From positions 1-37,831 of the forward strand of contig JAQXTL010000012.1 in the NCBI GenBank assembly GCA_029219465.1: 37,831 nt of DNA, in the 5' to 3' direction. Within the stretch, counting starts at the first letter, position 1. Every line of letters starts with the position of its first letter. Under the pieces are notes generated by a model. It did no database searches. It worked only from the letters and a program-made list of their open reading frames with translations, and had not been told where the DNA came from. A program made the position numbers and the translations under genes. Positions 932 to 37,831 of the stretch are shown here, piece after piece. This DNA is from Methanobacteriaceae archaeon. GTDB taxonomy: Archaea > Methanobacteriota > Methanobacteria > Methanobacteriales > Methanobacteriaceae.

Positions 932-941
932 GTTTAATACG

Positions 942-955
942 ATATATTTATATTA
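942..955 (+). promoter_or_regulatory. Candidate TATA box for the 1025-12286 operon
   Basis: The run ATATATTTATATTA lies 70-80 bases before the first gene and just inside the left IS end (931). Archaeal TATA boxes sit about 25 bases before the transcript start, so transcription would begin near 970-980. No B-recognition element can be assigned with confidence in such A+T-rich sequence. Confidence 0.4.
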
Positions 956-969
956 TTAGGATGATAAAA

Positions 970-982
970 ACACATATTGTGT
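970..982. promoter_or_regulatory. Short dyad near the expected operon transcript start
   Basis: ACACATATTGTGT has 5-base arms (ACACA/TGTGT) around TAT, placed where the operon transcript should begin. It could be an operator overlapping the start site. It is short enough to be chance. Confidence 0.25.
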
Positions 983-1024
983 CTTAATGTATATTTTAAT
1001 AAAATACTGATAAATTGTGATTAA

Positions 1025-1777
1025 ATGGATTTGAAAAGTAATTTTAAAGAATCATTGATGTATCCAATTAGGAATTATAAAAAGTTTATACTACTTGGAA
1101 CATTATTTATTATTTTAGACATTAATACTCTCGTCTTTTTAAATTCAGATAATCCTATTCTAACTATTTTTTGTGTTATAGATTCTATTATTTTATTGAT
1201 TATAATAATGGGAGATTTGATTTCTATAATCCGGGAAACCAGACTAACTACTAATGAATTTGAGTTTGGATGGTGGGAAAAATTTGGAATAGGTGTGAAA
1301 GGATTTTTAATTTCTTCCTTTGGCATTGCAATACCTTTAATATTATTCTTATTAATTACTTATATTACTGGAACTGGGGAATATTATTTTGATATACTTG
1401 AAGTAGGTGTTAATGGATTAACTATTAATTTATCAGTGATGTTTAATGATTATTCATTTATAGTCCTTTTAATTAACCTTTTTATAGTATTACTTTTTAT
1501 TTATTTTACAGTAATTGCATTAGCTAGATTATCTCACACTAATAATCTATTGGAAAGTGTTAATACAAAAAAGATAATTGAAGACTTAAAAAATATAGGA
1601 ATAATCCATTTTACTTTATGGGTGATAATAATGTTCATTTTGATGATTATTATGGGCATTGTATGTGATAAAGTCTATTATATTAGTTATGTAGGATTAA
1701 TAATTTCAAGTTATATATTAGTGCCTTATATAGCTATGTTTTTATTCAAAAGCATTGGAAATGAATACTCAATTTAG
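1025..1777 (+). CDS. DUF4013-type multi-pass membrane protein
   Basis: A 250-residue protein with about six hydrophobic segments (roughly residues 20-39, 44-66, 93-116, 142-168, 194-214 and 220-243) separated by short polar loops. The conserved-looking stretch FGWWEKFGIGVKGFLISS and overall plan resemble DUF4013 proteins, which are frequent in Methanobrevibacter and have no established function. The start is an ATG with GTGATT four bases upstream. It is the first gene of the nine-gene operon, eight bases before the phosphatase gene. A role as membrane partner of the sensor phosphatase or the exporter is only an inference from position. Confidence 0.7.
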   Translation: MDLKSNFKESLMYPIRNYKKFILLGTLFIILDINTLVFLNSDNPILTIFCVIDSIILLIIIMGDLISIIRETRLTTNEFEFGWWEKFGIGVKGFLISSFGIAIPLILFLLITYITGTGEYYFDILEVGVNGLTINLSVMFNDYSFIVLLINLFIVLLFIYFTVIALARLSHTNNLLESVNTKKIIEDLKNIGIIHFTLWVIIMFILMIIMGIVCDKVYYISYVGLIISSYILVPYIAMFLFKSIGNEYSI

Positions 1778-1785
1778 GTAAAAAT

Positions 1786-3732
1786 ATGAATTTAAATAAT
1801 TTTTATAAAAATATTAAAAATAATTATAAAAAAATTATAATCTCTTTTTTAATATTCACTCAATTATATATCCTAAAGTATTATATTGGATATTATAGTC
1901 CATTACATATTGAAGCTCATATTGGATTATACCCTATCTTAGGATTATTATTTGGTGGATGGGGAGCATTAGGTGTATCGTTTGCAAATTTATTAACTGA
2001 CTTAGCAGGAGGACATCCTCCTTTAGAAACTTTCATATGTTTTTTTGTAGATTTTTTATATGCATATTTACCTTATAAATTATGGTATAATTTTTCTAAA
2101 AATGGAAAATTAACTGCTCCTCAGTTAGGGACTATCTTTCATTTAGCAAAATTCTGTGGCGTAATATTAGTATCCACTATACTATATACAGTATTAATTA
2201 TAATGTTATTACATGATTCACAGAATGTTAGTTTATTTTCATTAACTACATTGAATTATTTCCTAAATGCATTTGTATTTGGATTTTTCACAGGAGTAAT
2301 TGGTATTATAATATCTAATTTGAAAAATATCGATTTAACAATACCTTCAGTAAATAAAAATCCTAAAATTAAAGATAAATGGTATAACTTAGCTTTATTA
2401 ATTGGAATAATATTGATTGTAGTATTCTTTATTATGATTGCTGTGGGTGAAAGTAATAAGTATATTAATTTACTATTTATTATTTCAATATGTATCTTAA
2501 TATTATTCTATACAACAAAACCTGTTAAATATCCAGTTATTAAAGAAAAATCAATTTATAAACCAATTATTGAGAAATTAATATTGATATTCTTAGGTTT
2601 TATCATTGGAATCTCTTTATTATTTACATCATTAGCTATTTTGATTGCACTTAAAACTGGAGAAAGCAGCATGATGATTGAAAATAGTTTAGGATTCACT
2701 ATTTCAATATTGTTATATCTGTTTATAGGATGGTTAGCATTCTTTGTTCCAGGATTAATTGCTCTTAAATATGTTGAAGAAAACATAACTAATCCTTTAT
2801 CATTATTTTCAAAATTTACTAGAGAATATATTAATTCAAAAGATAGTAAAGAAGTAAATAAAGAAAGTTTAATGGAAAGATATCAAGATTATTTTGAGAA
2901 GTATGATGAAATTGGGATATTGGGAAATTCAATTGTAAAAATGATGTCTGATTTGGAGAATGTTACCTCTGAAAAAGAAAGGATATCTACAGAATTAACA
3001 CTTGCAAAGGATATTCAGGAGTCCAAATTACCTACTAATTTCCCGAAAGATAAAAAGTACTCAATTAATGCCTCAATGAAACCTGCTCGTGAAGTAGGTG
3101 GAGATTTTTATGACTTTTTTGAGATTGATTCTGAAAACATATGTATTGTAATTGGAGATGCATCTGGAAAAGGAATCCCTGCAGCACTTTTTGCTGTAAT
3201 TGCAAAAGAACTAATTAAAACTCAATTACTAAGTGGTGCTTCTTTAGCAGAAACAATGAAATCTGTTAATAATAGGCTCTGTGAAAATAATGTTCAATCA
3301 ATGTTTGTAACAGCATGGGCAGGTGTTATAAATTTAAGAAAAAATGAACTTAAATTTGTTAATGCAGGTCATAATGCTCCTTTAATCAAAAATGGAGAAA
3401 CATTTGAATGGTTGGATTCTAAACATGGGCTTGTTTTAGGAGCTATGGAAAATATACAATATAAAGAACATTGTGTTTCTTTAAAATGTAATGATTTCCA
3501 AATATATTTGTATACTGATGGAGTTACTGAAGCACATAATGATAAAGAAGAACTATTTAATGAAGACAGATTAATAGAACTTATAAATAACAATAACTTA
3601 AATTCAATTGAGTTTATTGATTATCTGAATGGTGAATTAGATAAATTCAAAGGATCACAAGAGCAATTTGATGATATAACCATGATGATATTTGAATATA
3701 AAATTGGAGAAGATGAAAATGGAAATAATTGA
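1786..3732 (+). CDS. Membrane-anchored RsbU/SpoIIE-type PP2C serine phosphatase
   Basis: A 648-residue protein. Residues 1-340 are hydrophobic with about eight or more membrane segments; the GLYPILGLLFGGWGALG stretch recalls ligand-binding membrane sensor or ECF-S-like domains. Residues 340-400 form a HAMP-like helical linker. Residues 405-642 are a PP2C domain with its acidic metal ligands present: D440 in REVGGDFYD, D458 in GDASGKG, D578 in YTDGVTEA and D629/D630 in FDDITMM. RsbU-type enzymes dephosphorylate a phospho-STAS protein, and the STAS gene directly follows, overlapping this one. The likely job is to sense a signal at the membrane and reactivate the STAS protein. The signal is unknown. 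Confidence 0.9.
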   Translation: MNLNNFYKNIKNNYKKIIISFLIFTQLYILKYYIGYYSPLHIEAHIGLYPILGLLFGGWGALGVSFANLLTDLAGGHPPLETFICFFVDFLYAYLPYKLWYNFSKNGKLTAPQLGTIFHLAKFCGVILVSTILYTVLIIMLLHDSQNVSLFSLTTLNYFLNAFVFGFFTGVIGIIISNLKNIDLTIPSVNKNPKIKDKWYNLALLIGIILIVVFFIMIAVGESNKYINLLFIISICILILFYTTKPVKYPVIKEKSIYKPIIEKLILIFLGFIIGISLLFTSLAILIALKTGESSMMIENSLGFTISILLYLFIGWLAFFVPGLIALKYVEENITNPLSLFSKFTREYINSKDSKEVNKESLMERYQDYFEKYDEIGILGNSIVKMMSDLENVTSEKERISTELTLAKDIQESKLPTNFPKDKKYSINASMKPAREVGGDFYDFFEIDSENICIVIGDASGKGIPAALFAVIAKELIKTQLLSGASLAETMKSVNNRLCENNVQSMFVTAWAGVINLRKNELKFVNAGHNAPLIKNGETFEWLDSKHGLVLGAMENIQYKEHCVSLKCNDFQIYLYTDGVTEAHNDKEELFNEDRLIELINNNNLNSIEFIDYLNGELDKFKGSQEQFDDITMMIFEYKIGEDENGNN

Positions 3733-4015
3733 TAATAAAAATGGAAATGAATTAAGTATTAAATTAGTTGGGAAATTAGATACAAACACATCCCATCAAT
3801 TAGAAGAATTCATTCAGAATAATATTGAAGGTGTTGAGAAATTAGTTTATGATTTTGAAGAATTACTTTATATAAGTAGTTCTGGATTAAGAGTTTTATT
3901 ATCTAGTCAAAAAATCATGAATACTCAAGGGGAAATGGAAATAAATAATGTAAATGAGTTTGTGATGGAAGTTTTTGAAGCTACAGGATTTATAGACATC
4001 ATGAACATAAATTAG
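3719..4015 (+). CDS. STAS-domain anti-anti-sigma-type protein (RsbV/SpoIIAA-like)
   Basis: A 98-residue single STAS domain. The signature YISSSGLRVLL (residues 51-61) matches the phosphorylated loop of anti-sigma-factor antagonists; S54 is the likely phosphoserine. I chose ATG 3719 because GGAGA at 3706-3710 is eight bases upstream; an in-frame ATG at 3713 sits too close to it. The gene overlaps the phosphatase gene by 14 bases, implying coupled translation. In bacteria this protein, when dephosphorylated, binds the RsbW kinase and releases its target. An RsbW-type kinase is the last gene of this operon. Archaea lack sigma factors, so the released target is unknown. Confidence 0.9.
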   Translation: MEIIDNKNGNELSIKLVGKLDTNTSHQLEEFIQNNIEGVEKLVYDFEELLYISSSGLRVLLSSQKIMNTQGEMEINNVNEFVMEVFEATGFIDIMNIN

Positions 4016-4022
4016 GTGTAAT

Positions 4023-5729
4023 ATGACAATATATGAAGAATTGGATAAATTAAAACTAACTGAAATAGAAAAAGCTTGGTTAGGATATTGTCATAATTGT
4101 AGTGAAACTCAAAATACCGTTTTAGAAGATATACTTAAAAGCAATGAAAATACAGAGTTTGGAATGAAACATGATTTTAAAAATATCAAATCAGTAGAGG
4201 ATTTCCAAAAAAACATTCCCCTATCTCAATATTCTGATTATGAAGAATATATTGAAAAACTTAAATTAGGAGAGAATAATCAATTATTTGCTCAAGATAT
4301 AGAATATTTCATAATGACTTCAGGGACAAGTTCTGGGAAATCAAAATTAATACCTGAAAATGAAGATTCAAAAAATATCAAAAATACTGTTTACAAATTA
4401 AGAAATTATTATCTTTTAAAAACTTTGTTAATGAGTAAAGCAGATCCAAATTCTCAATTGAATAAGTATTTGATAAGTAAAGGATTAAATCCAAAAGATG
4501 TTAATGTTCCTGAATTATCAAATATTGTTCAGAATATGCATTATTTAACATTTTCAAGTAAAACTGATAATTATGAAACATCTGCTGGAATTCCAATCGG
4601 TTTTGCATCCGGAATGTCTTTTGAAAAATCAGCATTTACTAAAGGAATATCATATCCTCCACGATTAATGACTAAAAATGATGATGAAGCGAATAATTAT
4701 CTTGTAATGCTTTTTTCACTAAGATTTGAGGATATTCTCTATATAACAACTAATAATGCATCTAACTTTAATATTAAAGTGGAATATGCAATGGATCATG
4801 CAGAAGAATTAATTAATGATTTAAGAAATGGTACTATAACTAAAAGATTAAATCTTTCAGATGAAGATAGGAAGTATTATGAAAGCCAAATGGAAGCATT
4901 CCCTAAAAGAGCTAATTTTTTAGAAGAATTATTGAAAAAAGGAAAAGATCAATTTATTCCAAAAAATTATTGGCCATATGTTATGTTAACTAAATTTTGG
5001 TTAGGTGGATCAGTAGGTCCTAATTCAGAAACTTCAAGAAAATATCTTGATGAAAAAACTATTTTCTTTGATGTGGGTTATGGAGCTAGTGAAGGTAAAT
5101 TTACAATTCCTACAAAACCAGATACTCCTGAAGGCGTATTATCTATATTTGGAGGATTTTATGAATTTAAAGACATTGAGAATGGTCAAATATTGACTGC
5201 AGATAAAGTTGAGTTAAATAAAGAGTATGAATTGATAATTACTACATATGGTGGTTTATATCGATATGAGCTTCATGATATTATAGAAATTATAGGTTTT
5301 ACTGGAACAACACCTAATTTAATCTTTAAAACAAAATCTGGAGAAATATTGAATATATCTCAAGAAAAAATTCCAGCTATTGAAGTTGTAAATAAAATAA
5401 AAGATGGATTAAATTTAAGTTTTAAACAAGTTCAAATTTTTGAAAATCATGATGAAAAAAATTATGAGATTTATATTGAACTTGAAAAAGAAACTCAAAT
5501 TAATGCTAATGAATTAGCTAGTAAGTTAAATGAAATATTAATTGAAAGCTTTGAATTATATGAATTATATGATAGAATGGGGTTAATGACTCCGTTAAAG
5601 GTAATTTTAATGAAAAATGGATGGATAGAATCATTATATGCAATGAAATCAAAAGGAAACGTTCCAAAATCACAAATAAAATTACCTCTTATAATTACTG
5701 AAAAACCAGATAAAGAATATATTTTGTAA
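4023..5729 (+). CDS. GH3-family acyl-adenylate-forming enzyme (first copy)
   Basis: A 568-residue protein of the GH3 (JAR1/auxin-responsive promoter) family, which activates carboxylic acids with ATP and joins the acyl group to an amine, usually an amino acid. Adenylation motifs visible are the phosphate loop TSGTSSGKSKLIP (99-111), YGASEG (353-358) and YRYELHD (413-419). The start ATG has AGGTG four to five bases upstream, seven bases after the STAS stop. It is paralogous to, but clearly diverged from, the second GH3 gene at 10192; the shared N-terminal pattern is xFGMKHDFKNIKS versus YGIKYDFKNIKS. The substrate cannot be told from sequence. With the ATP-grasp ligase and exporter in the same operon, a secreted conjugate is plausible. 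Confidence 0.88.
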   Translation: MTIYEELDKLKLTEIEKAWLGYCHNCSETQNTVLEDILKSNENTEFGMKHDFKNIKSVEDFQKNIPLSQYSDYEEYIEKLKLGENNQLFAQDIEYFIMTSGTSSGKSKLIPENEDSKNIKNTVYKLRNYYLLKTLLMSKADPNSQLNKYLISKGLNPKDVNVPELSNIVQNMHYLTFSSKTDNYETSAGIPIGFASGMSFEKSAFTKGISYPPRLMTKNDDEANNYLVMLFSLRFEDILYITTNNASNFNIKVEYAMDHAEELINDLRNGTITKRLNLSDEDRKYYESQMEAFPKRANFLEELLKKGKDQFIPKNYWPYVMLTKFWLGGSVGPNSETSRKYLDEKTIFFDVGYGASEGKFTIPTKPDTPEGVLSIFGGFYEFKDIENGQILTADKVELNKEYELIITTYGGLYRYELHDIIEIIGFTGTTPNLIFKTKSGEILNISQEKIPAIEVVNKIKDGLNLSFKQVQIFENHDEKNYEIYIELEKETQINANELASKLNEILIESFELYELYDRMGLMTPLKVILMKNGWIESLYAMKSKGNVPKSQIKLPLIITEKPDKEYIL

Positions 5730-5739
5730 AGGTGAAAAA

Positions 5740-6672
5740 ATGAAAGGGGTAATACTTGCAGATAAACTATATAAAAGATTAATTGAATCAGAAAATCCTC
5801 CTGAAGATATTCAACTTGCTTTAAACTTGATAAATAGTTTAAATTTGGATTTAGATATATTAGATTATGAAAAAATTACTGTAACTTTGGATAATGAAGA
5901 GGAGGGTAAATTTTATTATGATGGAGAATTAAGGGATTTACCAGACTTTGCAATTAGTATTGCTTTATCCCATCGTGATGATTATAATTTACAAGCAGCC
6001 AAAAGAATGTTTGAAACTAAAGGATGTAAATACATAAATAGTGTTCAAACAACTCAAATTGCTAAAGATAAATTATACAGTTTACAATTAATAAAAGAAG
6101 CTATTCCAGAAATTAAAATTCCAAAAACAATGCTTATAAATCAATTTACCACTCCTGAAATGATTGTGGATTATATTGGTCTTCCTTGTGTTGTTAAAAT
6201 AATGGATGGTCTTCAAGGAAAAGGAGTTACTTTAGCAAAGGATAAAAAAGAGCTTGAAACAATTTTAACAATGCTCTTTGCAGCAGAAAATAATAATCAA
6301 TACATAGCTCAAGAAGCTATAATGACAAGTAAAGGTAGAGATTTAAGAATAGCTATTGCAAATAATGAATTAATTTATTCTTTTGTTAGAAGCAGTGGAG
6401 GAGATGATTTTAGATCAAATACTCATGTTAACGGAAGAATTGAAGATTATGAACCTTCTGAGGAATTATTAGATTTATCATTTAGAGTTGCTGAAGCTAT
6501 TAATTTACCATATGGAAGTATTGATTACTTATTTGGTGAAAATGATGAAGAATTTTATCTTTGTGAAGTAAATACTTTCCCAGGATTTAGTAAATTACTT
6601 AAAGCAATAGCAGAAAATGATGAAGAAACAATAAGAATATTTAAAGAATTACCACAAAAATTATTAAAATAA
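5740..6672 (+). CDS. RimK-like ATP-grasp ligase
   Basis: A 310-residue ATP-grasp protein, close to the usual RimK length. Visible elements are the lysine-containing stretch GLPCVVKIMDGLQGKGVTL with the glycine-rich loop, the GRDLRI motif (199-204), then FRSNTHVNG, and the metal/ATP-binding CEVNTFPGF (275-283). Family members join a carboxylate to an amine through an acyl phosphate; methanogen relatives include the glutamate ligases MptN and CofF. The ATG has GGTGA four bases upstream. Placement between a GH3 gene and ABC exporter genes suggests it adds an amino acid or other amine to the same product. Whether it is specific for glutamate cannot be told. Confidence 0.85.
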   Translation: MKGVILADKLYKRLIESENPPEDIQLALNLINSLNLDLDILDYEKITVTLDNEEEGKFYYDGELRDLPDFAISIALSHRDDYNLQAAKRMFETKGCKYINSVQTTQIAKDKLYSLQLIKEAIPEIKIPKTMLINQFTTPEMIVDYIGLPCVVKIMDGLQGKGVTLAKDKKELETILTMLFAAENNNQYIAQEAIMTSKGRDLRIAIANNELIYSFVRSSGGDDFRSNTHVNGRIEDYEPSEELLDLSFRVAEAINLPYGSIDYLFGENDEEFYLCEVNTFPGFSKLLKAIAENDEETIRIFKELPQKLLK

Positions 6673-6681
6673 GGTGATTTT

Positions 6682-8409
6682 CTGAAAAAATTAGTAATAA
6701 GAGCACTGAAAAAATACTGGAAGCATGTTCTCCTAACATTAATATTCGTATTGCTTCAAGTTTATTTCCAAATTGAAATAATCAACATGTCTAAGGTAAT
6801 TCTTGATAATGGTGTAAAAGTCAACAACTTTGAAGTAATTTATAATAGTGGAATATTAATGTTGATTTATACTCTTGGATCAATGATAATGGTTACTTTG
6901 GTATCATATATAACTTCATATATCACTGGAAAAGTTTCATTTGATTTAAGAAGTAAAATGTTTAGGAAAGTAACAGATTTATCATTATATGATTTTAATA
7001 AATTTGAAAGTGCATCTTTGATGAATAGGGCTACTGGAGATATAAATGTAATCCAGTTATTCATATTAAATCTTCTTAGAAGCTGTTTATTAATTCCATT
7101 TGTTATTGTGGGAGTCATTATAGAAACTGTTTTAATTAATAGAACATTAGCTGCAATTTTAATTGTATTCTTTATAATAACAATTTTATTTATGTTTATT
7201 AAAGGTAATAAGAGTATTATCTTTTTTAACAAACTTCAAGTAAGTGTTGATAGATTAAATTTATTGCTACGTGAGAAAGTTTACGGTGTAAGAAGTATTA
7301 GAGCATTTGGAAAAGAAGATTATGAAAGGAATAAATTTGAAAAGGCAAATGATGATTCTTATGAATTAAATATTGAATCTTCATTAAAACTATATTATGT
7401 TGCTCCAATGGCTGTATTGTTAATGAATGTAGCTGTTGTTATAATTTATTATGTTGGAGGAATTCAATTACAGTATAATATGGTTAATGTTGCAGATTTA
7501 TTATTATTCTTCCAATATATCACATATTTCTTAAGTAGCTTAGCATTAATTCCATTTATTGTAAAAATAATGCCTAAAGCTATTGTTGCATCAAATAGGA
7601 TAGAAGAAGTTTTTGAATATGAACCAATATTACTTAATAATCCAATTAAACAGGAATATAAAGAAGATTCATTTAAAGGTGTTGAATTTAATAATGTTAT
7701 TTTCGGTTATTCAGGAGCAAAGGACGTAATAGCTGATATCAATTTTAAAGCACCTAAAGGAACAACAACAGCTCTAATTGGAGCTACTGGATCTGGAAAA
7801 AGTACTGTAATGTATTTATTAAATAGAATGTATGATCCTACCTTTGGTGAAATATTAATTGATGGTGTCAATATAAAAGACATTGATTTAAAAGAATTAC
7901 ATTCAAAAATAAGTTTTGGAAGTCAAAAATCAATGGTATTCAATGACACTGTAATTGAAAATATTAGAATGAGTGATGATTCTATTACAAGAGAAGATAT
8001 TGAAAGAGCATGTGAAATAACACTTTTCACAGATGCATTTAAAAGTCTTCCTTCTGGAATTGATAGTATTATAGAAGAAAATGGTACTAACATTTCAGGT
8101 GGTCAAAGACAAAGATTAAGTCTTGCAAGAACAATTGCCAAAGATTCAGACATTTATATTTTCGATGATACATTCAGTGCTTTGGATATGAAAACTGAAA
8201 AAATTGTAAGGGAGAATATAAAGGAATTACTCAAAGATAAGACTGTGTTTATGGTTGCTCAAAAAATAAGTACTATTATTGATGCAGATAACATTTTAGT
8301 ATTTGATGCTGGACGTATTGTATGTCAAGGAACCCATGAAGAATTGTTAGAAAAATGTGAAATTTATAAAGAGATTTATGAATCTCAAGCATATATGAAT
8401 AAGGAGTAA
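6682..8409 (+). CDS. ABC exporter half-transporter with degenerate nucleotide site (CTG start)
   Basis: A 575-residue fused membrane-ATPase protein of the multidrug/lipid/peptide exporter class. I extend it to CTG 6682: GGTGA at 6673-6677 sits four bases before CTG, exactly the spacing used for the ATG of the preceding gene. The added 23 residues supply the basic N-terminus (KKLVIRALKKYWKH) and the start of membrane segment 1, which a TTG 6751 start would truncate. Walker A is GATGSGKST (367-375) and the signature is ISGGQ (471-475). The Walker B glutamate is replaced (IFDD, D496) and the switch histidine is Q527. This is therefore the non-catalytic Walker side of a heterodimer with the next gene. 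Confidence 0.88.
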   Translation: MKKLVIRALKKYWKHVLLTLIFVLLQVYFQIEIINMSKVILDNGVKVNNFEVIYNSGILMLIYTLGSMIMVTLVSYITSYITGKVSFDLRSKMFRKVTDLSLYDFNKFESASLMNRATGDINVIQLFILNLLRSCLLIPFVIVGVIIETVLINRTLAAILIVFFIITILFMFIKGNKSIIFFNKLQVSVDRLNLLLREKVYGVRSIRAFGKEDYERNKFEKANDDSYELNIESSLKLYYVAPMAVLLMNVAVVIIYYVGGIQLQYNMVNVADLLLFFQYITYFLSSLALIPFIVKIMPKAIVASNRIEEVFEYEPILLNNPIKQEYKEDSFKGVEFNNVIFGYSGAKDVIADINFKAPKGTTTALIGATGSGKSTVMYLLNRMYDPTFGEILIDGVNIKDIDLKELHSKISFGSQKSMVFNDTVIENIRMSDDSITREDIERACEITLFTDAFKSLPSGIDSIIEENGTNISGGQRQRLSLARTIAKDSDIYIFDDTFSALDMKTEKIVRENIKELLKDKTVFMVAQKISTIIDADNILVFDAGRIVCQGTHEELLEKCEIYKEIYESQAYMNKE

Positions 8410-8414
8410 TTGAA

Positions 8415-10187
8415 ATGGTTAAAAATGATAAAAATTCTTATAAAGGATTACTTAAAACTATTTACCAATTAATTGGGAAAGATAAAAATAAATTTATTTT
8501 AGCCATTGCATTAATGGTTATTGGAACTTTTTGTTTAGCATATGCTCCAAATGTTGCTGGGAAAATAACTGATGAATTTTCAAAATTTGCAACTACAAAT
8601 GTATTTAATGAAAATATAATAATAACTCTCCTTATATCATTATTAGTCCTTTATGTTGTTGGAAATTTATTAAAGATGGTTTCTGACCGTATGATGATTT
8701 TTATAAGCAGTAGGGTGTCTTTAAAATTAAGATATGAGTTACATGAAAAAATGCATAATGTTCCTATAAATTACATTGACTCAACTCCAAGTGGGGATAT
8801 CATAGCTAGATTAACAAATGATATGAGTAGTGTTGAATCAATGATAAGTAGTACATTAGTTACTATCTTTGTTCAATTTATTATCATAGTTCTTGTTATT
8901 GTAATGATGTTAATTTTAAATGTTGAATTAAGTATTATTTATCTTATATTAATTCCATTATCCTTTGGTATTCTCAATTTCATAAGTAATAAAACAAAAG
9001 TACAATTTAAAAAACAACAGATGCTTGTTGGTAAATTGAATGGAGTAATTGGAGATAATTTCAATAATCATCTGATTGTAAAATCCTATAATATGGAAGA
9101 AAAATCATTAGATAAATTTGATAAAATTAATCATCAAATATTTGAATCTTTCTTTAAATCTAGGTTTTATTCAGGATTTATTATACCTATTAACACTATT
9201 TTAACAAATATAGGATATATTGGTATTTGTGTTTTCGGAGGATACTTTATAATCTCTGGAAGTCTTACAATAGGAACATTTTTAGCATTTATTTTATATG
9301 GGCAAATGTTGACTGAGCCATTAACAACTATTGGAAATAATCTTAACATACTACAATCTGGACTTAGTAGTTTAGAGAATATTTTAGATGTTTTAAATGC
9401 AGAAGAAGAAAAAGACTTTGAAAATAGTGAACATCTCCTTGAAAAGGATGTTAAAGGTGAGATTGAATTTAAAAATGTTAAATTTGGATATACTGAAGAT
9501 AAAATATTAATGAATGATGTTAATTTTATTGCAAAATCAGGTACAACAAATGCTATTGTAGGACCATCAGGAGCTGGAAAAACCACAATCGTTAATTTAT
9601 TAATGAGATTCTATGATATAAATGATGGAGTTATATATTTAGATGGTAAAAATATTTATAGAATTAAGAGAGATGATTTTAGGAAAAGTTTTGGAATGGT
9701 TCTCCAAGACAGTTGGGTTTTCGAAGGAACAATAGCTGAAAATATTGGATATGGAATGGAAAATCCAACAATTGAAGATATTCATAAAGCTGCTGAGTTA
9801 GTAGGTTGTGATAAATTTATAAATCTTTTACCTGATGGTTATGACACTATCATCAGTGAAGAAAATACTAATTTAAGTGTTGGTGAAAAACAATTGTTAG
9901 TTTTAGCTCGTACAATAATATCTGATCCTAAAATATTGATTTTGGATGAAGCTACAAGTCAAATGGATACAAGAACAGAACTATTAGTTACAAAAGCTAT
10001 GGAAGAAATGATGAAAGGTAGAACAACATTTATAATAGCTCATAGATTATTTACAATTAAAAATGCAGATAAAATTATTTTCATGAAAAATGGGGATATA
10101 AAAGAAGTTGGAAATCATAAAGAATTATTAGAATTAAATGGATTATATGCAGAGATGTATAAAAGTGGATCAATTAAAAGTGAGTGA
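8415..10187 (+). CDS. ABC exporter half-transporter, catalytic partner
   Basis: A 590-residue exporter half with an N-terminal six-helix membrane domain (to about residue 330) and a C-terminal ATPase domain. Walker A GPSGAGKTT (383-391), Walker B ILDE with catalytic E512 and switch H543 are intact. The signature is degenerate, LSVGE (487-491) instead of LSGGQ. That complements the partner encoded by the previous gene: canonical site = this Walker A/B plus the partner's ISGGQ; degenerate site = the partner's Walker A/B plus this LSVGE. The start ATG follows AAGGAG and lies five bases after the previous stop. The cargo is unknown; the two GH3 enzymes and ATP-grasp ligase around it suggest a small conjugated molecule. 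Confidence 0.9.
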   Translation: MVKNDKNSYKGLLKTIYQLIGKDKNKFILAIALMVIGTFCLAYAPNVAGKITDEFSKFATTNVFNENIIITLLISLLVLYVVGNLLKMVSDRMMIFISSRVSLKLRYELHEKMHNVPINYIDSTPSGDIIARLTNDMSSVESMISSTLVTIFVQFIIIVLVIVMMLILNVELSIIYLILIPLSFGILNFISNKTKVQFKKQQMLVGKLNGVIGDNFNNHLIVKSYNMEEKSLDKFDKINHQIFESFFKSRFYSGFIIPINTILTNIGYIGICVFGGYFIISGSLTIGTFLAFILYGQMLTEPLTTIGNNLNILQSGLSSLENILDVLNAEEEKDFENSEHLLEKDVKGEIEFKNVKFGYTEDKILMNDVNFIAKSGTTNAIVGPSGAGKTTIVNLLMRFYDINDGVIYLDGKNIYRIKRDDFRKSFGMVLQDSWVFEGTIAENIGYGMENPTIEDIHKAAELVGCDKFINLLPDGYDTIISEENTNLSVGEKQLLVLARTIISDPKILILDEATSQMDTRTELLVTKAMEEMMKGRTTFIIAHRLFTIKNADKIIFMKNGDIKEVGNHKELLELNGLYAEMYKSGSIKSE

Positions 10188-10191
10188 TAAT

Positions 10192-11871
10192 ATGGAACGT
10201 GAAATAAGAAAGAAGATATATGGGGAGTTATTAGATGCTCCTTCAAAGGCTCATAAACAATTAGAGCTATTTAGTCTTGATGCAAAGAAAACCAATGAAG
10301 AATTATTAATGAAAATATTAAATGACAATAAAGACACTGCATATGGGATAAAATATGACTTTAAAAATATTAAATCTATTAAAGAATATCAGGAAAATGT
10401 CCCAATATCTGAATATGATGATTATATTGATTTTTTAATTCCAATGGTATTTCAAGGTGTAGAAAATCTTTTAACAGTTTATCCTGTAAAACATTATAAT
10501 AAATCTTCAGGAACACTTGGAAACCCTAAAAAAATACCAATTAGTGAAGTAGCACAACAATTGAATTTCTTATATTCTCTACCTTTTGTATTACACTTAA
10601 TCACAGAAGAATTAGGAGATAAATGGAAAGAGGGAAAAATATTCATAATTGGACAATATAATATTTCATCTGTACCTTCTGGAGCTACATATGGTGCTTT
10701 AACTGCAAAATTAGCAGATAATATGAAAGATTATTTTGATATTTTATCAACAAGCCCTGCAGAAGTTCTTGTTCCGCAAGGAGATTTAGATACACATTAT
10801 CTTCAATCATTATATGCACTTCGTGAAAAAAACACAACTATTGTTATTTCTGCATATTTCAGCTATTTCTTGGAAATTTTAAGATATATGGAGGATAATC
10901 ATGAGATGTTAATTGAAGATATTAGGAATGGAACAATTAATTCTTCAATTAATTTATCTCCTGAAACAAGAGAAATTTTAGAAGAAAAATTAACTCCAAT
11001 GCCTGAAAGAGCTGATGAATTAGAAGAAATATTCTCCAAACCAATTGATAATACTTTTGTTAAATCAATATGGCCAGATATTCAGGCATTTGAAGGAATT
11101 GGAACATCAACATTTGAAACATATGTTGAAAAAATAAGAGAAAAATATGCTAATGAAGAAACTCCAATATTATATTTAGGATTGCAAGCTTCAGAGGGAA
11201 TTTTCTCAACACCATTGGAATTAAATAATAAAAACAGTGTATTAATTCCAAATGCAATATTCTTTGAGTTTAGACCTGTTGAACAGGAGGGTTATGATAA
11301 TCTATTAACAATTGATCAGCTAGAAGTTGGAAAAGATTATGAAATAATTTTAACAAATTTATCTGGATTTTATAGATATAAAATAAAGGATGTTGTAAGA
11401 GTAACTGGAATGCATAATACTCTACCTGAAATTACATTCAAATATCGTTTAAATCAGACTGTAAATTTAACTGGAGAAAAAACTACTGAAGAAGCTTTAA
11501 GAGAATCAGTAAAACAATGTGAAGAGAAATATGGCTTCGACTGTGTTGACTTTACAGTATTTGCAGATACTGAAGCTGTTCCAATGAATTATAATTTCTT
11601 AATAGAACCAGATAACATAGATGATATCGATGTTGAGGCTCTCAGAGCCGATTTAGAAAAAAATCTTGGTAAAGCAAATCCTTCATTTGGTTCTAAAATT
11701 GAAAATAATACTTTTGGTGAAACAAAACTTGAAATATTACAAAAAGAAACATTTATGCTTTACAGGGATCTTATGGCTATGAAAGGAGTAAGTGTAGTTC
11801 AGCTTAAACCTCCTAGAATAATAGTAAATGAAGTTCAAAGAAAATTCTTCTATGCTCTTAGGGAACTTTGA
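10192..11871 (+). CDS. GH3-family acyl-adenylate-forming enzyme (second copy)
   Basis: A 559-residue GH3 protein. The phosphate loop is KSSGTLGNPKKIP (104-116), the second motif LGLQASEG (329-336) and the third FYRYKIKD (393-400). I start at ATG 10192, four bases after the ABC stop, because the 18 residues gained by starting at 10138 would lie inside the ABC gene and look nothing like the family. It is clearly diverged from the first copy, with different residues in all three motifs, so the two probably act on different acids or in sequence rather than being redundant. It is followed four bases later by the RsbW-type kinase gene. Confidence 0.88.
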   Translation: MEREIRKKIYGELLDAPSKAHKQLELFSLDAKKTNEELLMKILNDNKDTAYGIKYDFKNIKSIKEYQENVPISEYDDYIDFLIPMVFQGVENLLTVYPVKHYNKSSGTLGNPKKIPISEVAQQLNFLYSLPFVLHLITEELGDKWKEGKIFIIGQYNISSVPSGATYGALTAKLADNMKDYFDILSTSPAEVLVPQGDLDTHYLQSLYALREKNTTIVISAYFSYFLEILRYMEDNHEMLIEDIRNGTINSSINLSPETREILEEKLTPMPERADELEEIFSKPIDNTFVKSIWPDIQAFEGIGTSTFETYVEKIREKYANEETPILYLGLQASEGIFSTPLELNNKNSVLIPNAIFFEFRPVEQEGYDNLLTIDQLEVGKDYEIILTNLSGFYRYKIKDVVRVTGMHNTLPEITFKYRLNQTVNLTGEKTTEEALRESVKQCEEKYGFDCVDFTVFADTEAVPMNYNFLIEPDNIDDIDVEALRADLEKNLGKANPSFGSKIENNTFGETKLEILQKETFMLYRDLMAMKGVSVVQLKPPRIIVNEVQRKFFYALREL

Positions 11872-11875
11872 TAAT

Positions 11876-12286
11876 ATGAAAAAACTTGTATTTGATGCGG
11901 ATGTTAGTGAATTAGAGAATATCTTCAATGAATTAAATAGATTATTGGAAGATTATGATACTGATGAATTAGCTGTTATGAAACTTAAATTAGTATTAGA
12001 AGAAATTTTTACTAATATCAGCAATTATGCATATAATGATAAAGGAATAGTTGAATTTTTAGTTGACATAATTTCAAACCATCAATTAGAAATTATAATA
12101 AAATTAATTGATGAAGGTGAATATTTCAATCCTCTAGAACAAGCTACACCTGATACTACATTAAGTTCTGATGAACGTGAAATTGGTGGGTTAGGTATTC
12201 TTCTCATTAAAAAGAATGTTGATGTAATAGAGTATGAAAGAGTTGACAATAAAAACATTTTAACTATTCATAAAATTTTAAATTAG
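11876..12286 (+). CDS. RsbW/SpoIIAB-type serine kinase (HATPase_c)
   Basis: A 136-residue single-domain GHKL ATPase. The N-box is EEIFTNISNYAY and the G1 box is DEGEYFNPL, followed by a glycine-rich GGLGILLIKK. There is no sensor or phospho-acceptor domain, as in anti-sigma-factor kinases. I start at ATG 11876 (MKKLVFDADVSELE), four bases after the GH3 stop; a start at 11828 would lie inside the GH3 gene. In bacteria such kinases phosphorylate the STAS protein and sequester a sigma factor. Here its partners are likely the STAS protein at 3719 and an unknown non-sigma target. It is the last gene of the operon. Confidence 0.88.
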   Translation: MKKLVFDADVSELENIFNELNRLLEDYDTDELAVMKLKLVLEEIFTNISNYAYNDKGIVEFLVDIISNHQLEIIIKLIDEGEYFNPLEQATPDTTLSSDEREIGGLGILLIKKNVDVIEYERVDNKNILTIHKILN

Positions 12287-12310
12287 TGATTCCTTTTAAA
12301 GAATATTAAC

Positions 12311-12341
12311 TTTTCCCTTAAGGGGAAAATTACTTTTTTTT
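12311..12341 (+). terminator. Hairpin plus T-run terminator of the GH3/ABC operon
   Basis: TTTTCCC and GGGGAAAA pair around TTAA, followed within three bases by a run of eight T. It lies 25 bases after the kinase stop and separates the operon from the ferredoxin promoter. Confidence 0.8.
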
Positions 12342-12392
12342 ATTTTAGATAAACTTTAATTATATCTGAATAATTATTTTTTCACTAAACAT

Positions 12393-12402
12393 TTTATATA
12401 AT
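12393..12402 (+). promoter_or_regulatory. Candidate TATA box for ferredoxin-ggr
   Basis: TTTATATAAT about 50 bases before the ferredoxin ATG, followed by a ribosome binding site AAGGAGA at 12439-12445. The surrounding sequence is very A+T rich, so the exact box is uncertain. Confidence 0.4.
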
Positions 12403-12451
12403 AAAAAATATATTATACATAATATAAATTTTAGACTTAAGGAGAATTTTT

Positions 12452-12619
12452 ATGATAGTTAAAGATTGGTGCTCATTTTGTGGTGAGTGTGCTGGGGTTT
12501 GCCCAAGAAATTTAATCCAAGTAAGAGAATATTCATTAGTATTTAATGATGATGACTGTAAAGATTGTGATACATGTATTAAAGCATGTCCAATTGATGC
12601 ATTAGAAAAAGAGGAATGA
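12452..12619 (+). CDS. Small 2[4Fe-4S] ferredoxin next to geranylgeranyl reductase
   Basis: A 55-residue protein with two complete cluster motifs: CSFCGECAGVCP (C7, C10, C13, C17) and CKDCDTCIKACP (C36, C39, C42, C46). The ATG is preceded by AAGGAG. The gene ends four bases before ggr, so the two are co-transcribed. In Methanosarcina acetivorans a neighbouring ferredoxin is known to supply electrons to geranylgeranyl reductase for full saturation of archaeal lipids. The same role is the natural inference here. Confidence 0.92.
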   Translation: MIVKDWCSFCGECAGVCPRNLIQVREYSLVFNDDDCKDCDTCIKACPIDALEKEE

Positions 12620-36447: not shown

Positions 36448-37257
36448 ATGTATATTAAAATTAAAAATAAATTTTACATAGTATCTATAGCCACAATTCT
36501 ATTTTTTTGTTTCCAGGTTTGGTTTTTAACCCCTTGGATTTTAGATATTGCTAAGGTCTGTGGAATGACCCTTAGTATCATCATAATCGGTGGTGTGGCT
36601 ATAGGGCTGGGTTTACTTAATTTCTTCTTAGTAATGTCTATGTTTTTTGATAATCAAAAAGACATTTATACTCTTGAAAGACACGATGAAGATGTTTCTA
36701 TATTAATAGCTGCATATAATGGGGAAGAATCTATTTATGAAACATTATTGAGTTTATCTAATCAGAAATATGATGCTACAATTTACGTTTATGTAATAGA
36801 TAACAATAGTAAAGATAATACTAAATACCAAATTTTAAAAGGAATTGTTGATTTTAACAGATCTGATTTGGTTATTAAATATCTTTTTGAACCAAAGCGT
36901 GGAAAATTCAACGCATTAAATAATGGTTTGAGAAGAGTAAAAACAGACAAAGTAATTACAATTGATGCAGATAGCGGGGTATACGGGGATGCTATTTCAA
37001 ATATTGTTAGTAGGATGGTTAATGACAATTGTAAAGCTGTTGCAGGAGCTACATTGGTGCGTAACAGTAGACAAAACTTATTAACCAAAATGCAGGAATG
37101 GGATTACTTTTTAAGTATTGCATCAGTTAAAAAAATGCAGGGTTTATTCCAAGGAACACTTGTAGCACAGGGTGCATTTAGTATTTATGATACAGAAATC
37201 GTTAGAAAATATGGTGGATGGGAAAACTGTATTGGTGAAGACATTATATCACTCTAA
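36448..37257 (+). CDS. Truncated membrane glycosyltransferase family 2
   Basis: A 269-residue protein with two N-terminal membrane segments (about residues 8-30 and 36-62) and a GT-A domain: SILIAAYNGEESI, the DNNSKDNT turn, EPKRGKFNALNNGL, IDADSG (metal-binding DxD type) and the GGWENCIGEDI base region. It stops right after GEDIISL. Full-length relatives continue with a QxxRW motif and C-terminal membrane helices, absent here in all three frames up to the right IS copy (37407). This is probably a broken gene whose 3' part was lost when the IS arrived or through later rearrangement. Surface polysaccharide synthesis would be the usual role. Confidence 0.78.
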   Translation: MYIKIKNKFYIVSIATILFFCFQVWFLTPWILDIAKVCGMTLSIIIIGGVAIGLGLLNFFLVMSMFFDNQKDIYTLERHDEDVSILIAAYNGEESIYETLLSLSNQKYDATIYVYVIDNNSKDNTKYQILKGIVDFNRSDLVIKYLFEPKRGKFNALNNGLRRVKTDKVITIDADSGVYGDAISNIVSRMVNDNCKAVAGATLVRNSRQNLLTKMQEWDYFLSIASVKKMQGLFQGTLVAQGAFSIYDTEIVRKYGGWENCIGEDIISL

Positions 37258-37406: not shown

Positions 37407-37831
37407 GACTCTTTCAAAAACTTTGTTGATTTGAAATTTTTTGATGAAAATTGGTTTGGAATTTTTTATTTTGTCTAAAAATAGTTAAATTTAATAAATA
37501 AGTGGAGTAAAAGTTTTTATCATGCTAAACCAAAAAACAAATATTCCAAATAGTATTTTAGATGTTGAACAATATATATTTTGCGATTCCAATGATGGAT
37601 TAGTGCTTTTCGACCCTCGTTTTGTGAAAATTTTTAAATCCTGTCAAAAGGCTTTGAAATCTTTTGATTTAAGTTTTAAAAAGGATGTTCCTTATTTTAA
37701 AATGAGTTTGGCTAGATGCCCACATTGTGGAACTCGTCATGTTGTTAAATATGGTTTTACAAAAAGAACATTGGTATTTAAAGAAATTGGTAAAACAAAA
37801 GTTAAGGTTCAGCGTTATATTTGCAAACGTT
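37407..37831 (+). mobile_element. Insertion sequence, right copy, cut by window end
   Basis: It begins at GACTCTTTCAAAAACTTTG and matches the left copy (931 leftward, minus strand) to the end of the window at about 94% by hand count. It lies in inverted orientation to the left copy, with both transposase 5' ends facing inward. The 115-base leader before the transposase ATG is conserved in both copies. Confidence 0.85.
37522..37831 (+). CDS. DDE transposase, 5' part (continues beyond window)
   Basis: An open frame of 103 codons from ATG 37522 running off the end. It begins MLNQKTNIPNSILDVEQ and carries the first CxxC (CPHCGTRH) of the zinc ribbon plus the start of the second (ICKR). The frame is intact where the left copy has lost its start codon, so this may be the functional copy. 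The DDE catalytic part is outside the window. Confidence 0.85.
   Translation, partial: MLNQKTNIPNSILDVEQYIFCDSNDGLVLFDPRFVKIFKSCQKALKSFDLSFKKDVPYFKMSLARCPHCGTRHVVKYGFTKRTLVFKEIGKTKVKVQRYICKR

Follow-up and report, generated by a model that had tools for sequence, protein, structure and literature searches.

What does a methanogen do with two GH3 proteins encoded in one operon? The question is raised by contig JAQXTL010000012.1 of a Methanobacteriaceae archaeon (assembly GCA_029219465.1), a stretch of 37,831 nucleotides that we analysed whole and call the window; it is one complete contig of a 1.66-Mb genome, from a group that includes named Methanobrevibacter. A preliminary description of this DNA had pointed out the two genes, here GH3a and GH3b, and proposed that their products take different substrates or act in series, which is still the most natural reading. 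The main finding, which that description did not contain, is the context of the pair: a mobile operon, by its gene content one for biosynthesis and export, that lies under an RsbU/STAS/RsbW switch and is common to these archaea and gut Firmicutes. We hold it probable that this is a horizontally spread small-molecule cluster in which amides would be assembled without a carrier protein and an acyl-peptide-like metabolite secreted, with production switched by the RsbU/STAS/RsbW proteins.

The operon occupies approximately positions 1025–12286 of the forward strand, with its genes nearly end to end, separated by short gaps or overlapping, in the order DUF4013, RsbU/SpoIIE, STAS, GH3a, RimK, ABC1, ABC2, GH3b and RsbW, followed by a terminator-like hairpin. 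The GH3 pair is present as first described, in two full-length open reading frames on the forward strand that match all three Pfam GH3 models, but the span given for the operon, 4023–11871, proved too narrow: RsbU and STAS genes lie upstream of it and an RsbW gene downstream.

GH3a scored 206, 61 and 32 bits and GH3b 219, 84 and 60 bits against Pfam GH3, GH3_M and GH3_C (cut-off 23.6), and the source genome contains no further GH3 gene. Predicted AlphaFold models of GH3a and GH3b (predicted local distance difference test 83 and 90.5) matched AtGH3.15 with template-modelling scores of up to 0.76 and 0.85, respectively, and the top PDB matches of both models were all plant GH3 amido synthetases (6avh, 4epl, 5kod). 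By profile and predicted fold, then, GH3a and GH3b are members of the GH3 family. Their adenylation motifs read exactly as first quoted (TSGTSSGK, YGASEG and YRYELHD in GH3a; KSSGTLGN, LQASEG and YRYKIKD in GH3b), and both copies keep them: across 80 GH3 members from archaea and bacteria, aligned together with three plant enzymes, the lysine of motif I, the SE of motif II, the YR(Y)xxxD of motif III and the lysine of a C-terminal QxK are 94–100% conserved in each clade, and both window proteins have the hinge E-K, which only the GH3c subgroup has lost. Neither protein lacks a key catalytic residue, and to that extent a loss of catalysis in either of them is ruled out. Plant GH3 enzymes (JAR1/GH3.11, PBS3/GH3.12, GH3.15, VvGH3-1) share the three Pfam domains, the adenylation motifs, the hinge and C-terminal lysines and the fold, but differ from the window proteins in several respects: firstly, they are only ~18–25% identical to them and fall into separate clades; secondly, the window proteins are archaeal and share one operon that also encodes RimK, an exporter and a phospho-switch; thirdly, GH3b has leucine for tyrosine in motif II, as do the archaeal and nearest bacterial members shown, the residue being mixed across the GH3b clade.

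The two copies are diverged, as had been proposed: they are 28% identical over ~430 amino acids, and each is 42–52% identical to its own counterparts in other archaea. A tree of 84 sequences (a quick build with Shimodaira–Hasegawa-like approximate likelihood ratio supports, no bootstrap and some long end branches) resolved GH3a, with the related GH3c group, and GH3b as two deep clades with supports of 99 and 96. Each clade holds Methanobacteriaceae together with gut Firmicutes or Coriobacteriia, so a recent tandem duplication is ruled out and the pair is older than its arrival in archaea. GH3b of two Methanobrevibacter (L047, L049) is nested in a different, mostly Firmicutes group, which indicates more than one transfer.

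Recent movement of the block was evident from its closest copy. Positions 932 to ~12500 are 99.3–100% identical in nucleotide sequence to the copy in a different species, G107 (99.8% for the block), while the right flanks of the two are only 80–91% identical. In four sister species no more than ~300 bases separate the gene for a universal stress protein, G107's left neighbour, from the ferredoxin-like and geranylgeranyl reductase genes that lie to the right of the block in the window; the insertion site is empty in these species. The near-identical block, the diverged right flank and the empty sites together show that the operon moved recently between species. In G107 a PGA_cap (CapA-like) gene split by a frameshift (L040:3906-4899) lies between the universal stress protein and DUF4013 genes; it is part of the inserted segment and matches the PGA_cap gene of Lachnospiraceae clusters, and at the corresponding place the window has an insertion sequence copy at the contig end.

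The same insertion sequence (IS1/ISL3-like, with a transposase N-terminus bearing a zinc motif) stands at both ends of the contig in opposite orientations, at 1-931 and ~37440-37831. The left copy directly abuts the operon block; at the other end, a truncated glycosyltransferase gene (36448-37257) precedes the right copy.

GH3 genes were found in 18 of 139 genomes of the family, and in a phylum-level sample all matches fell within Methanobacteriaceae. The sample of relatives contained one GH3 above the cut-off from beyond the phylum, in a distant archaeon (G058, L017); it stands on a very long branch of 2.67, as a lone gene beside an aldehyde ferredoxin oxidoreductase, and was excluded from the conclusions. 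Among 84,980 species genomes of bacteria and archaea, a scan found 156 relatives, and the best 80 of these were archaeal or belonged to Clostridia and Coriobacteriia of the gut and rumen; most named carriers had a rumen, intestinal, faecal or termite-type origin. Bacterial GH3 proteins, which had been called scattered, are not so: more than 7,500 bacterial homologues of the GH3-like OlsH, mostly from Bacteroidota, have been reported (PMC12493201). Many of our loci are contigs of metagenome-assembled genomes, in which single cases may be misbinned, yet the pattern recurs across independent samples.

The partners of the window pair recur in these relatives (double colons mark fusions). In 14 of 17 archaeal loci, not counting the window and G107, a STAS gene is next to GH3b or fused to it. 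Archaeal arrangements include NRPS-RimK-GH3a-RimK-ABC1-ABC2-STAS-GH3b in G007 (NRPS, nonribosomal peptide synthetase); ABC2-STAS-GH3b-RsbW, with GH3a, in G033, whose cluster copy (L054) contains ~5.4 kb of N where RimK and ABC1 are not readable; STAS-GH3b-GH3a-RimK in G153 (L059, a contig of Candidatus Methanovirga basalitermitum); MATE::RsbW-STAS-GH3b::RsbW in G016, G019, G101 and G122; STAS-GH3b-GH3c-MATE::RsbW in M. cuticularis and M. curvatus; and STAS::GH3b-MATE::RsbW in G144. Three Lachnospiraceae loci (L096, L098, L090) combine GH3b, GH3a, PGA_cap, ABC1 and ABC2, with STAS and RsbU as well in L096 and L098, in the orders GH3b-PGA_cap-ABC1-ABC2-GH3a-STAS-RsbU and STAS-RsbU-GH3b-GH3a-PGA_cap-ABC1-ABC2 (PGA_cap assigned by profile in L096 and L098 and by sequence similarity in L090). 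Other bacterial GH3b genes lie beside NRPS-like genes or stand-alone condensation and AMP-ligase genes. The fusions comprise RimK::GH3a (L086), STAS::GH3b (L044), GH3b::RsbW, which occurs in four genomes, and MATE::RsbW, in which an RsbW-like HATPase domain forms the C-terminus of a MATE exporter (L014:7256-9013, L041, L042, L015:7692-9452) beside STAS and GH3b::RsbW. The fusion of RimK to GH3a and the linkage of GH3b, GH3a and exporter across two domains of life favour a shared pathway. In Blautia, a STAS domain fused to an APH-type phosphotransferase (L074:7345-8544) adjoins a GH3b/NRPS cluster.

How might such a pathway run? ATP-grasp enzymes form an acyl phosphate and then an amide bond. 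Plant GH3 enzymes form an acyl-AMP and then an amide bond to an amino acid (PMC11253546). Because the products of both chemistries bear a new free carboxylate, GH3a, RimK and GH3b could act serially. On the scheme that we infer, the three would be ATP-dependent amide ligases needing no carrier protein. Each would couple a free carboxylate with the amine group of an amino acid and so supply the next enzyme with a fresh carboxylate, and an N-acyl di- or tripeptide-like product would result from the series; in which order they ligate is a guess. The ABC1/ABC2 heterodimer would export this product, and its production would be switched by RsbU as phosphatase, RsbW as kinase and STAS. Several observations weigh against this scheme: RimK is replaced by PGA_cap in some relatives; a second GH3 lies within 5 kb in 9 of 65 loci, and many bacterial GH3b genes have no GH3a; of the 65 bacterial loci, only 15 have STAS within the same distance; and the HATPase part of the MATE fusion has no GGLG box (checked in L014) and may not be an active kinase. 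Given the replacement of RimK by PGA_cap and the many lone bacterial GH3b genes, GH3a, RimK and GH3b do not necessarily belong to a single linear pathway. We suggest more tentatively that there is a whole class of carrier-free clusters in gut archaea and bacteria (GH3b and GH3a, with or without RimK or PGA_cap, and an exporter) in which a sigma-free switch would gate GH3b and the exporter directly.

The known makers of secondary metabolites in methanogens are only the unexplored NRPS genes of Methanobrevibacter. If the proposed scheme is true, gut archaea and gut Firmicutes have in common a compact, recently exchanged pathway, and probably a common chemical signal or antimicrobial in animal guts. 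The operon would also be an answerable case of what RsbU/RsbW partner switches control without sigma factors, and closely related strains that differ in having the block allow the questions of pathway and switch to be tested directly.

The regulatory genes form an RsbU-RsbV-RsbW module, with a PP2C phosphatase, a STAS protein and a HATPase kinase in one operon and active-site motifs intact. The phosphatase gene, whose 3' end is overlapped by the 5' end of the STAS gene, is the sole SpoIIE gene of the source genome, and no sigma factor is annotated in the operon. A scan for sigma-70 promoters gave 104 hits against 99 expected, archaea using other promoters. The switch probably acts on GH3b, the exporter or both directly, rather than on transcription, because archaea are not known to have sigma factors and, in relatives, STAS and RsbW are fused to GH3b and RsbW is fused to MATE. 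Direct enzyme control by such a partner switch has a precedent in SiaC-SiaD (PMC8457831). The RsbU/RsbV/RsbW and SiaABCD systems described there likewise pair a PP2C phosphatase with a STAS or STAS-like protein and a HATPase kinase; unlike them, the window switch is archaeal, has no sigma factor and is linked to GH3 and MATE proteins, with which its components form fusions in relatives.

A switch that works through transcription only, in which some archaeal factor would control the operon and leave GH3b untouched, is a possibility of lesser weight; it bears on regulation alone and would fit the biosynthetic role proposed here, so its probability overlaps that of the explanation we prefer. In its favour, the set is a classical one with its motifs intact; against it, archaea are not known to have sigma factors, the operon has no transcription-factor gene, and STAS::GH3b, GH3b::RsbW and MATE::RsbW are direct fusions. 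Clusters in M. ruminantium lend this alternative some support: NRPS genes there are accompanied by the same regulators and by MatE exporters, and the authors proposed that these regulators serve in sensing and in regulating NRPS expression (PMC2812497). These clusters (mru0066-0071, mru0513-0516) resemble the window operon in belonging to the same genus and in joining peptide-type biosynthesis to a serine phosphatase, an anti-sigma-factor antagonist, an anti-sigma kinase and an exporter; unlike them, the window operon has GH3 and RimK ligases and no NRPS, and the same report makes no mention of GH3 (PMC2812497).

The association of the switch with NRPS genes extends through the genus. Among 25 genomes, 18 have both SpoIIE and NRPS condensation domains, 5 have neither and 2 have SpoIIE only (Fisher p=0.0004, with relatedness and genome size uncorrected). 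One exception is the source genome, whose single SpoIIE lies in the GH3 operon. The other, G003, carries STAS-RsbW-RsbU (L153:7086-10282) and, directly after it, a gene for 210 amino acids which, read by eye and with no profile, looks like a 4'-phosphopantetheinyl transferase; this is the layout of mru0513-0516 in M. ruminantium, and G003, with no condensation domains detected, is 87% complete. Many Methanobrevibacter genomes contain several large NRPS genes, with frames of up to 7212 amino acids (for example G009:C18, G017:C31/C33 and G022:C58).

It is unlikely, in our judgement, that the operon instead decorates the cell envelope, in which case a lipid, glycan or pseudomurein precursor would receive amino acids from the ligases and be flipped outward by an MsbA-like ABC pair. 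The best-scoring models for ABC1 and ABC2 are indeed MsbA-type, though far below their cut-offs, and PGA_cap occurs both in the bacterial clusters and, frameshifted, upstream of the G107 copy. The operon, however, has no glycosyltransferase or OlsI-type acyltransferase; relatives have a MATE pump in place of the ABC pair and carry NRPS genes; presence is very patchy across the family; and methanogens, as is generally known, lack fatty-acid lipids, including those of the membrane. Also in favour of decoration is OlsH, a planctomycete GH3 that makes lyso-ornithine lipid (PMC12493201) and is, like the window proteins, a prokaryotic GH3-like candidate for amino-acid N-acylation. Identity with OlsH was rejected: GH3a and GH3b reached 52.1 and 80.2 bits against NF052613, far under its equivalog cut-off of 620, and the operon has no OlsI partner; these scores, too, count against decoration.

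Detoxification is quite improbable. Under it, the GH3 proteins would conjugate aromatic or bile acids of the gut with amino acids and the ABC pair would export the conjugates, as the gut-type sources of the named carriers and the conjugation of aromatic and jasmonate acids by plant GH3s (PMC11253546) might suggest; it leaves unexplained the RimK, NRPS and PGA_cap partners and the keeping together of two anciently separate GH3s. An NRPS cluster was rejected, there being no condensation-domain match anywhere in the source genome (a relative does have an NRPS beside the same genes), and a ribosomally synthesized and post-translationally modified peptide with RimK as modifier is not favoured, as the operon has no intergenic room for a precursor gene, although no dedicated precursor search was run. 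We found no description of archaeal GH3 operons, or of GH3 tied to a partner switch, in the open-access papers searched, subscription papers lying outside the search.

Table 1. Coordinates in the window of the operon genes, its terminator-like hairpin and the exchanged block.
Feature	Position	Strand	Basis
DUF4013 membrane protein	1025..1777	+	Pfam DUF4013 3.3e-11; first gene of exchanged block, inside 99.8% identical part
RsbU-like membrane PP2C/SpoIIE phosphatase	1786..3732	+	SpoIIE 7.6e-43; metal-site motifs VGGDFYD, DASGKG, QFDD intact
STAS-domain anti-sigma-factor-antagonist-like protein (RsbV)	3713..4015	+	STAS 1.6e-13; TIGR00377 70.6 bits, cut-off 53.45; phosphosite motif SSSGLR
GH3a acyl-acid amido synthetase-like ligase, 568 amino acids	4023..5729	+	Pfam GH3/GH3_M/GH3_C; motifs; AlphaFold model
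RimK-type ATP-grasp amino-acid ligase	5740..6672	+	RimK 3.8e-28; TIGR00768 138 bits, slightly below cut-off 143.4
ABC1, half of heterodimeric type IV ABC exporter	6682..8409	+	ABC_membrane and ABC_tran; degenerate Walker B FDDT, canonical signature SGGQ
ABC2, other exporter half	8415..10187	+	ABC_membrane and ABC_tran; canonical Walker B LDEA, degenerate signature SVGE
GH3b acyl-acid amido synthetase-like ligase, 559 amino acids	10192..11871	+	Pfam GH3/GH3_M/GH3_C; AlphaFold model
RsbW-like HATPase_c_2 serine kinase / anti-sigma-factor-like protein	11876..12286	+	HATPase_c_2 5.4e-17; N-box EEIFTN, DEG, GGLG intact
Terminator-like hairpin and T-run, operon end	12311..12337	+	Scan
Block recently exchanged between species	932..12500	.	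99.3-100% nucleotide identity to G107; site empty in four sister species

The start sites of ABC1 and GH3b in the table depart from the listed reading frames. ABC1 probably starts at CTG 6682, behind the ribosome-binding site AGGTGA, the listed TTG 6751 being too short; for GH3b, whose frame was called as 10138-11871, ATG 10192 directly past the ABC2 stop is the more likely start. ABC1 and ABC2 are two subunits that each join a transmembrane domain to a nucleotide-binding domain, with one degenerate ATP site between them, the make-up of a heterodimeric type IV exporter.

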